From the IMG/VR virus record IMGVR_UViG_3300046804_003396, positions 1 to 40,193 of that record: a stretch of DNA of 40,193 nt; one strand, given 5' to 3'. The notes beneath the pieces were generated by a model. It was not told where the DNA came from. It worked only from the letters and a program-made list of their open reading frames with translations, and did not search any database. This DNA comes from a virus. The position numbers and the translations under genes are program-made. Every line of letters begins with the position of its first letter. Within the stretch, counting starts at the first letter, position 1. Of the stretch, positions 8,010 through 40,129 are shown piece by piece.

Positions 8010-8081
8010 CCTCTGGTAGTCTATTGGTAAGGACAGGCAGACAATGCACTTGGAAACTAGGTTCGATTCCTAGACAGAGGA
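8010..8081 (+). pseudogene. tRNA-like element lacking a foldable anticodon arm
   Basis: 72 bases with a near-complete acceptor (CCTCTG/CAGAGG), a D-arm GTC/GAC with GGTAA loop, and a perfect T-arm CTAGG-TTCGATT-CCTAG. The 22 bases between the D- and T-arms do not form a 5-bp stem with a 7-base loop, so no anticodon can be read with confidence. It may be a decayed tRNA (Gln or Pro ancestry would fit the length) or a tRNA mimic. Confidence 0.5.
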
Positions 8082-10193: not shown

Positions 10194-10418
10194 ATGAATC
10201 AAGAACTAGAAGAACTTCAATCCTTTACAGTCGAAGAGTTTCAATCTGATTTTGACAATCTTATGCAAAGAGTAGAAAACGGCGAATCATTTATTATACG
10301 AGACGGAAATAAAAGCGCAGTGATAGTTCCTTACAACGAAACCATAAAGTACGCAATAGAATCAACTGTGGATGACGAATTGATACGTCTCCACACAGAC
10401 CACGAAGAAGGTTCTTGA
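10194..10418 (+). CDS. Phd/YefM-like antitoxin, orphan
   Basis: 74 residues resembling Phd/YefM antitoxins: an N-terminal DNA-binding fold with FTVEEFQSDFDNLMQRVENG, then ESFIIRDGNKSAVIVPYNE, the usual strand pattern, and a charged C-terminal tail that would bind a toxin. No Doc- or YoeB-like toxin gene is adjacent; the next items are a promoter and tRNA-like element. A lone antitoxin in a phage could neutralise a host abortive-infection toxin or act as a small repressor. The 7-bp dyad 14 bp downstream (10432-10455), lying over a promoter, is a candidate operator. Confidence 0.72.
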   Translation: MNQELEELQSFTVEEFQSDFDNLMQRVENGESFIIRDGNKSAVIVPYNETIKYAIESTVDDELIRLHTDHEEGS

Positions 10419-10461: not shown

Positions 10462-10549
10462 GCGAGTGAGACTTGGTAGTCAGAGGAGTCTTATAAACTC
10501 TTTCCGCCAGATTAGCGGCTTTGAGGTGGTTCGAATCCACCCACTCGTA
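10462..10549 (+). tRNA. Class II tRNA-like gene with TAT in the anticodon position
   Basis: Acceptor GCGAGTG/CACTCGT, anticodon stem GGAGT/ACTCT around CTTATAA, long variable arm CCGC/GCGG, and T-arm GGTGG-TTCGAAT-CCACC. The anticodon would be TAT (Ile, AUA), but a long variable arm is expected in Leu, Ser or Tyr tRNAs. Base 8 is A rather than the near-universal U, and the D-loop is very short. Either an aberrant tRNA-Leu relative or a decaying gene; charging identity is unknown. Confidence 0.6.
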
Positions 10550-10595: not shown

Positions 10596-10970
10596 ATGCC
10601 TAGAAAAAGAAAAACTTCTGCGGATTGTGATTCGATACGAGAGTATCAGCGCAATTGGTTAAAAGAAAAACTTAAAAATGACCCAGAGTACAAAGCAAGA
10701 CATTACGCCAACAGACAAAATCGAGCAAAACAAAACAAAGAAAATTTAACTAATTTAAAAGAAAGTATTTCTTGTTCTGCTTGCGGAGAATATCATCCAG
10801 CGTGTTGTATGGACTATCATCATATAGACCCAAATATAAAAGAAAAGGGCGTATCTCAAATGATACAAGGAAATTCTTGGAAAAAAATTCAAGAAGAAAT
10901 TTCCAAATGTATTTTAGTTTGTGCAAATTGTCATCGCAAAATACACGAAGGTTTAATCACGCTCGTTTAG
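10596..10970 (+). CDS. HNH endonuclease
   Basis: 124 residues. Basic N-terminal region (about 1-55), then a compact HNH core: zinc pair CSAC, the DYHHIDP motif, and CILVCANCHRKIH with the second Cys pair and final His. Probably a free-standing homing-type nuclease. Its last ten bases, including the stop, are also the first bases of tRNA-Met, so its 3' end is locked to the tRNA. Such tight placement suggests that insertion or homing occurred at the tRNA boundary. Confidence 0.85.
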   Translation: MPRKRKTSADCDSIREYQRNWLKEKLKNDPEYKARHYANRQNRAKQNKENLTNLKESISCSACGEYHPACCMDYHHIDPNIKEKGVSQMIQGNSWKKIQEEISKCILVCANCHRKIHEGLITLV

Positions 10971-11034
10971 CCATCTGGTGAAGGCAGCGTTCTCATAAAG
11001 CGCCGTAGGAAGAGTTCGATTCTCTCAACGAGCA
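10961..11034 (+). tRNA. tRNA-Met (CAT)
   Basis: Acceptor GCTCGTT/AACGAGC, anticodon loop CTCATAA, T-arm with one mismatch (AAGAG/CTCTC). It could be elongator Met, or Ile with modified C34. Overlaps the HNH stop. A GGACAC/GTGTCC hairpin follows (11037-11058). Confidence 0.88.
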
Positions 11035-39049: not shown

Positions 39050-40129
39050 ATGACTGCTACAATTTCACGTCAACGACAATCAAATACTTGGGAACAGTTC
39101 TGCAACTGGGTTACTTCAACCGACAATCGCCTTTATGTTGGTTGGTTTGGAGTCCTGATGATTCCCTGCCTGCTTGCTGCTACAACTTGTTTCATTATCG
39201 CATTCATCGGTGCTCCTCCTGTGGACATTGATGGTATCCGTGAACCCGTTGCTGGTTCACTCATGTACGGAAACAACATCATCTCTGGTGCTGTTATTCC
39301 TTCGTCCAACGCAATTGGACTGCACTTTTACCCCATCTGGGAAGCTGCTTCTCTAGATGAGTGGCTCTACAACGGTGGTCCTTTCCAACTTGTTGTTTTC
39401 CACTTCCTGATTGGTATCTATGCCTATATGGGTCGTGAGTGGGAACTTTCCTACCGCTTGGGTATGCGTCCTTGGATTTGTGTTGCTTACTCCGCTCCTG
39501 TTGCCGCTGCTTCTGCGGTGTTCCTTGTTTATCCTTTCGGTCAAGGTTCTTTCTCTGATGCAATGCCTTTGGGTATCTCTGGTACGTTCAACTATATGCT
39601 TGTTTTCCAGGCAGAGCACAACATTCTGATGCACCCCTTCCATATGCTGGGTGTCGCTGGTGTCTTCGGTGGGTCGCTATTCTCTGCGATGCACGGTTCT
39701 CTGGTTACTTCCTCGCTGGTTCGTGAAACTACCGAGAACGAGTCTCAGAACTATGGATACAAGTTCGGTCAAGAAGAAGAGACCTACAACATTGTAGCCG
39801 CTCACGGTTACTTCGGACGCCTTATTTTCCAATATGCTTCCTTCAATAACTCCCGTTCGCTGCACTTCTTCCTTGCTGCTTGGCCAGTAGTTGGTATTTG
39901 GTTTGCTGCTCTAGGTGTAAGCACCATGGCATTTAACCTTAACGGATTTAATTACAACCAGAGTATTCTTGACTCACAAAATCGTGTAATTAACTCTTGG
40001 GCTGATGTTCTTAACCGTGCTAATCTTGGTTTCGAGGTGATGCATGAGAGAAACGCCCACAACTTCCCTCTGGACCTTGCTGCTGCAAGCAACACCCCTG
40101 TTGCTCTTACTGCACCTGCAATCGGTTGA
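39050..40129 (+). CDS. psbA: Photosystem II D1 protein
   Basis: 359 residues, full length. Functional residues are all present: Tyr161 (TyrZ), Asp170, His190, His198 (P680), His215 and His272 (iron), Ser264 (QB), His332, Glu333, Asp342 and Ala344 at the processing site. Residue 130 is Glu (GREWELSYR), as in the high-light D1:2 form. It replaces the rapidly damaged host D1 so that photosynthesis continues during infection. GC content is clearly higher than in most of the window, as expected of a host-derived gene. Tandem early/late promoters and a structured leader precede it; a GNRA terminator follows. Confidence 0.98.

Follow-up and report, generated by a model that had tools for sequence, protein, structure and literature searches.

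A phage tRNA for the isoleucine codon AUA with two tandem anticodon arms, and a proposed division of labor between them

The window, by which we mean the entire 40,193-nucleotide stretch that was analyzed, is a fragment of a T4-like cyanophage. It contains genes for the photosystem protein D1 (39050-40129) and for the small chain of ribonucleotide reductase (1296-2486), PhotoRC-II and wcaG RNAs (Rfam), and twelve tRNA genes according to ARAGORN. One of these, the subject of this report, is a tRNA-Ile(tat) called by ARAGORN at exactly 10462-10549, which scores 81.7 bits against our R1 model and lies below the gathering score of Rfam family RF00005. Downstream of it is a CAU tRNA (Met or Ile2; 10961-11034), and a CTCATAA loop is found within 200 nt downstream of the corresponding gene in 66 of 99 related loci. 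Elsewhere in the window, at 8010-8081, ARAGORN called a His tRNA with an unusual ATG anticodon; the loop is a poor fit, and the call may be mistaken. Just 5′ of the UAU gene is a small open reading frame (10194-10418) with a likeness to the Phd/YefM antitoxin family that falls below the curated cut-off, and related cyanophages also have Phd/YefM-like genes in their tRNA region.

The features of the gene, with the evidence for each in parentheses, are as follows:

10462..10549, + strand: complete 88-nt tRNA gene, both anticodon arms included, CCA not encoded (ARAGORN, fold, R1 model)
10462..10468, + strand: 5′ strand of the acceptor stem, GCGAGTG (fold, helix covariation)
10469..10469, + strand: single A between acceptor and D-stem, in place of the expected U8 and purine 9
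10470..10481, + strand: reduced D-arm with a 4-bp stem and the 4-nt loop TGGT (fold)
10483..10503, + strand: arm 1, the anticodon arm, with loop CTTATAA (fold, covariation)
10492..10494, + strand: arm 1 anticodon TAT, which would read AUA (ARAGORN, register check)
10504..10518, + strand: arm 2, a second anticodon-like arm with the 7-nt loop CAGATTA (fold, conservation, covariation)
10510..10512, + strand: positions 34-36 of the arm 2 loop, GAT, matching the anticodon of ordinary tRNA-Ile
10519..10524, + strand: CTTTGA between arm 2 and the T-stem, a variable region of class I length if arm 2 is taken as a 5-bp anticodon stem
10525..10541, + strand: T-arm with loop TTCGAAT (fold)
10542..10549, + strand: 3′ strand of the acceptor stem and discriminator A73 (fold)

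The minimum-energy fold contains all five helices (-31.3 kcal/mol, z -2.99 relative to shuffled sequences). The gene has the hallmarks of a tRNA, namely a 7-bp acceptor stem (including G1.U72), a 5-bp T-arm with a 7-nt loop of the TTCRA type, an anticodon arm with U33, and a purine discriminator. A single A separates the D-stem from the anticodon stem, which extends to as many as 7 bp in arm 1; arm 2 is a 4-bp hairpin. A sequence-only reading of the locus had pointed out the UAU anticodon, the absence of U8 and the abnormally short D-arm, and all three observations hold. The peculiarities at position 8 and in the D-loop belong to the window type, other lineages of the family described below having U8 and a normal D-arm.

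UAU is the only register of the arm 1 loop that combines five pairs with U33. The alternative fold with a TAA anticodon that had been raised against the gene places A at position 33 and forms only two pairs, and the UUA and AUA registers likewise have too few pairs or no U33. Inspection by eye shows that CAGAG could pair perfectly with CTTTG in the window and so enclose both arms; a 7-bp arm 1 is what the minimum-energy fold favors instead.

The sequence-only reading also proposed a comparison with related phages, and this proved productive. A search of IMG/VR with a probe of 16 bases from the anticodon arm recovered the whole 88-nt gene in more than 100 loci among the matches listed, most of them identical or nearly so and set in differing genetic surroundings. 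In diverged members the two loops remain constant while the acceptor, T and extra-arm stems change with compensation. Given these compensated stems and the recurrence of the gene in diverse loci, the gene at 10462-10549 is not a product of chance: it is a real tRNA gene.

Genes of this kind, which we call two-arm tRNAs, are present in cultured phages as well, many of them unrelated to one another. The Synechococcus phages S-SRM01 and S-SKS1 carry the 88-nt gene, unannotated, and Synechococcus phage S-CRM01 also has a two-arm tRNA; directly after the latter (L004, 3997-4046) is the surviving 3′ portion of a second two-arm gene, whose type is different. The type found in Vibrio phage Thalassa occurs in about 40 Vibrio phage records, nearly all of them annotated tRNA-Ile. 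Further members are found in Vibrio phage V6Aob, Acinetobacter phage qsb1, Sinorhizobium phage Phosso, Lactobacillus phages LpeD and Lpa804, and Levilactobacillus phage ENFP1 and its relative 3-521. (The sequences of S-SRM01, S-SKS1, S-CRM01, Thalassa, V6Aob, qsb1, Phosso, LpeD and ENFP1 were inspected directly; the other isolates are BLAST matches.) Two-arm genes are thus already in public records, either as plain "tRNA-Ile" or missed by annotation. They often sit within large tRNA sets, and each of five complete carrier phage genomes gave one strong match. Among bacteria, 244 cyanobacterial genomes yielded no two-arm tRNA at the threshold used, only matches of ordinary tRNA length (~72 nt, about 54-58 bits). 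Clear members were found in six of 199 Acidobacteriota genomes, most of them inside tRNA arrays that may be prophages; such arrays contain up to 22 tRNAs in 3 kb (L684-L689, L699, L700).

The important feature of the gene, which the sequence-only reading missed, is the second, GAU-bearing arm. The two-arm architecture is represented by 42 lineages at less than 80% identity, and nearly all members have as their extra arm a hairpin whose 7-nt loop follows the pattern NNGAUNN, most commonly CAGAUUA. GAU occupies the center of the loop (positions 34-36) in all 42 lineages, and the flanking loop positions vary. Because several of our scans had used a GATTAG motif, lineages found without recourse to arm 2 were counted separately: all 22 that came from searches with arm 1 or from BLAST queries with other members have GAU, and positions 32, 33, 37 and 38 of arm 2 vary among them. 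Pairing in the four helices amounts to 97.2% across 33 lineages at less than 80% identity, as compared to 59.6% after shuffling, and each of the four arm 2 pairs exhibits changes on both sides. The seven acceptor and five T pairs are maintained across lineages, 41 of 42 have A as discriminator, and CCA is encoded in many. Five loci (L019, L029, L050, L068 and L090) have a T-loop of ATCGTTA or ATCGTAA rather than TTCRA, which breaks the usual U54-A58 pattern, and a tRNA-like sequence near position 5765 of L040 has a CTTATAA loop, a very long variable region and apparently no D-arm.

The position of the GAU arm is as constant as its triplet. Between the end of the arm 2 loop and the T-stem all 42 lineages have 9 or 10 nt, in a search that permitted 3 to 20. 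In a class I tRNA the anticodon loop is separated from the T-stem by five stem bases and a variable loop of 4-5, and in several two-arm lineages the last bases before the T-stem are the usual AGGTC or AGGTT. Thus, a class I tRNA bearing two anticodon arms in tandem is a more apt description of the molecule than class II. What the sequence-only reading noted as a long variable arm does exist as an extra arm, but its assignment to the Leu/Ser/Tyr type does not stand, as the arm is a GAU hairpin followed by a variable loop of class I length.

The GAU arm and the UAU anticodon are coupled in both directions. A scan for an GGTTTATACC arm followed by a long variable region, with no condition on arm 2, returned among its parsed cloverleaves only tRNAs bearing GAU. 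Conversely, a scan for an CCAGATTAG arm, with no condition on the anticodon, found the GAU arm on UAU tRNAs only, the few other rows having the look of ordinary Ser/Leu tRNAs or of chance parses. When every fetched locus was parsed systematically, 1,373 distinct tRNA-like genes emerged, among which GAU was present in the long variable region of 84 of 84 UAU genes (81 satisfying a strict hairpin rule and the remaining three having weaker stems), as against a GAU arm in none of 151 long-variable-region tRNAs with other anticodons; since the fetched loci were enriched for UAU genes by design, these counts represent an association and not frequencies. One UAU gene with a variable region of 14 nt (L095) has no GAU.

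The two loops differ in the positions that flank their triplets. In arm 1, U33 is invariable and A37 nearly so, whereas in arm 2 U33 is found in only two of 42 lineages, position 37 is U in 32 and position 38 is A in 37. The retention of U33 and A37 in arm 1, and the rarity of U33 together with the prevalence of U37 in arm 2, make arm 1 look built for the ribosome and arm 2 not.

Vibrio phage Thalassa provides a glimpse of how such a gene could have arisen. Its UAU gene adjoins a tRNA-Ile(GAU) gene, and an alignment shows agreement between the two in both the D-arm and the T-arm and in the last part of the variable loop. What separates them is a single clean block of 17 nt, GCGGGTTTATACTCCGT, which follows position 26 and is a complete UAU anticodon arm. 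Judging from the alignment, the two-arm gene of Thalassa looks like a tRNA-Ile(GAU) into which an anticodon arm was inserted, with the original GAU arm kept as arm 2; the likeness may also have come about through local gene conversion. We do not extend such an origin from a local tRNA-Ile(GAU) to every two-arm tRNA: the relationship is clear in Thalassa only, and elsewhere the mean rank of the local tRNA-Ile(GAU) was 7.9 against 10.8 expected. In most other loci the relationship is not seen, the bodies having diverged too far for the comparison to be informative. Thalassa has two CAU tRNAs, which resemble the initiator and elongator Met tRNAs of phage T5 and not its Ile2. Thus, Thalassa, unlike T5, has no Ile2-like CAU tRNA, and the two-arm tRNA appears to replace Ile2.

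What AUA means in carrier phages was assessed by aligning conserved genes of Thalassa with those of T5 (61 AUA sites) and of S-SRM01 with those of S-SM2 (44 sites). In Thalassa the log-likelihood was highest for Ile (-127), followed by Leu (-158) and Ser (-261); the corresponding values in S-SRM01 were -82, -110 and -170. The control, T5, which has Ile2, gave the same pattern. Of the Ile codons in conserved genes of these phages, 12-15% are AUA; the conserved genes of the window hold almost no AUA codons, and the meaning of AUA is taken from Thalassa and S-SRM01. In both carriers, then, AUA is isoleucine, and a Leu- or Ser-charged AUA tRNA would be harmful. The suggestion that the tRNA might insert Leu or Ser at AUA is contradicted by these results, and its alternative, an unusual Ile tRNA, is supported by them. 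A class II Leu/Ser/Tyr identity is likewise rejected on the grounds of the 9-10 nt spacing to the T-stem, the UAU anticodon, the AUA test and the absence of GAU arms from all 151 tRNAs with other anticodons.

In bacteria it is lysidine, an essential modification, that allows one tRNA both to be charged with isoleucine and to read AUA. AUA is read by a CAU tRNA whose C34 is converted to lysidine, and the isoleucyl-tRNA synthetase (IleRS) of Escherichia coli does not isoleucylate the tRNA with unmodified C34 (PMC11938285). UAU tRNAs are as a rule avoided in prokaryotes (PMC8007984), with the exception of some bacteria that use tRNA-Ile(UAU) (PMC8450103), and IleRS depends strongly on the anticodon (PMC9976931). 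From this avoidance and this dependence a UAU tRNA would be expected to decode AUA and yet, we infer, to be a poor substrate for IleRS in most bacteria.

We propose that the two-arm tRNA is a phage AUA isoleucine tRNA that is used at the ribosome through arm 1 and recognized by IleRS through arm 2, so that lysidine is bypassed, and we consider this proposal fairly likely to be correct. The gene would be expressed, and arm 1, with UAU, U33 and A37, would read the rare codon AUA on the ribosome. Arm 2, with GAU at the normal anticodon distance from the T-arm and lacking U33, would present the identity label of tRNA-Ile(GAU) to the synthetase, and this copy of the ordinary label probably serves for loading with isoleucine by the host enzyme. 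Isoleucine could in this way be attached despite an anticodon that bacteria avoid, with no need for TilS or lysidine. The two arms would probably compete for, or exchange, the place stacked beneath the D-arm, charging falling to the GAU conformer and decoding to the UAU conformer. Charging through arm 2 is about as likely, in our judgment, as the proposal as a whole. Counting against it is that t6A37 is a strong determinant for bacterial IleRS (PMC9976931), which arm 2, having mostly U37, would lack. Somewhat more guardedly, we favor the broader view that these genes make up a class of tRNA that splits the two tasks of the anticodon, UAU for the ribosome and a non-decoding GAU for the synthetase, and that lysidine-independent reading of AUA is widespread among phages.

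An isoleucine tRNA for AUA could instead be charged through UAU itself, with arm 2 contributing to RNA stability, engaging a modification enzyme or acting as a decoy for an enzyme that attacks tRNA-Ile(GAU). Some bacteria have a tRNA-Ile(UAU) (PMC8450103), and phage UAU tRNAs that lack arm 2 and have the usual class I shape are present in contigs L005, L018, L038, L041, L063 and L116 and in those of the L627 type; L018, L038, L041, L063 and L116 contain both such a tRNA and a two-arm gene. (The isolate closest to the class I UAU tRNA of the L625 type is a Clostridioides phage, and an assignment of that type to a coliphage was therefore dropped.) Arm 2 is evidently not obligatory for every UAU tRNA. 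We nevertheless regard charging through UAU as unlikely, because it leaves unexplained the invariance of GAU, the anticodon-like spacing and the confinement of the arm to UAU tRNAs. Those same facts of spacing and invariance weigh against charging with Leu or Ser, in the manner of the nematode nev-tRNA-Ile(UAU) or of Ser-type allo-tRNAs. The extra arm and A73 are compatible with LeuRS, and the nematode tRNA is misacylated with Leu in vitro (PMC4300185), but with AUA sites conserved as isoleucine in two carrier phages, and A73 unfit for serine (which calls for G73), we hold this explanation to be very improbable.

That both arms decode, arm 1 reading AUA and arm 2 reading AUU and AUC, is suggested by the fact that both are 7-nt loops with isoleucine anticodons; it is hardly credible for an arm 2 that is unlike a decoding loop, without U33 in 40 of 42 lineages and with U37 in 32. 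Nor do we give much credence to a decayed gene or an RNA with no role in translation. Related UAU allo-tRNAs of soil bacteria are, according to a review, unusable in E. coli translation (PMC7609411), and S-CRM01 has the 3′ remnant of a second copy. Against decay are the strong covariation in all helices, the CCA encoded in many lineages, the retention of A73, U33 and A37, and the presence of one copy per complete genome, often in large tRNA sets.

How do two-arm tRNAs relate to known tRNAs? With the major isoleucine tRNA of bacteria, tRNA-Ile(GAU), they have in common A73 and a 7-nt GAU loop that lies equally far from the T-arm; they differ by the extra 17-nt UAU arm preceding the GAU arm and by a GAU loop that lacks U33 and usually A37. 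Bacterial tRNA-Ile2(CAU) does the same job, that of an AUA-reading isoleucine tRNA of phage or cell. Charging and decoding are solved in Ile2 by modification of C34, whereas the two-arm tRNA has an encoded U34 and a second arm that would carry the isoleucine label; with its UAU anticodon it is not a member of the CAU-bearing, TilS-modified Ile2 group. The tRNA-Ile(UAU) of Mycoplasma mobile, Bifidobacterium, Neorickettsia and lactobacilli uses UAU for AUA, as does the two-arm tRNA. Those bacterial tRNAs, however, are of ordinary class I shape and are not known to have a second arm, and their synthetase accepts UAU.

UAU allo-tRNAs were reportedly described in Acidobacteria and soil by Mukai in 2017. 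The allo-tRNA(UAU) of Acidobacteria and soil metagenomes resembles the two-arm tRNA, going by the review, in occurring in Acidobacteria, in the commonness of UAU and in having odd extra arms (PMC7609411). As described there, allo-tRNAs have 8/4 or 9/3 acceptor/T stems and an extra loop between the acceptor and the D-arm; this description sets them apart from the two-arm tRNA, which has 7/5 stems and its extra arm after arm 1 (PMC7609411). In the window tRNA an 8/4 or 9/3 arrangement is excluded by its 7/5 stems, A8 being unable to pair with C65. Some two-arm tRNAs may nevertheless overlap with Mukai's 2017 allo-tRNA(UAU) set. The nematode nev-tRNA-Ile(UAU) likewise has UAU and an extra arm between the anticodon arm and the T-arm (PMC4300185), but it is a nematode tRNA charged with Leu in vitro, whereas AUA is isoleucine in two phages that carry the two-arm tRNA, whose extra arm is a hairpin resembling a GAU anticodon arm. 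No earlier description of a tRNA with two anticodon arms was found in the literature searched, in which subscription journals were thinly covered.

Finally, if our proposal is true, separate anticodons for the ribosome and the synthetase would be a new answer to the problem of charging and decoding at AUA, and identity and decoding would be separable inside one molecule. The arrangement suggests a possible tool, in which arm 1 is recoded and isoleucine identity is kept by arm 2. For the phages themselves, it would mean that they could be freed from dependence on the TilS of their hosts.
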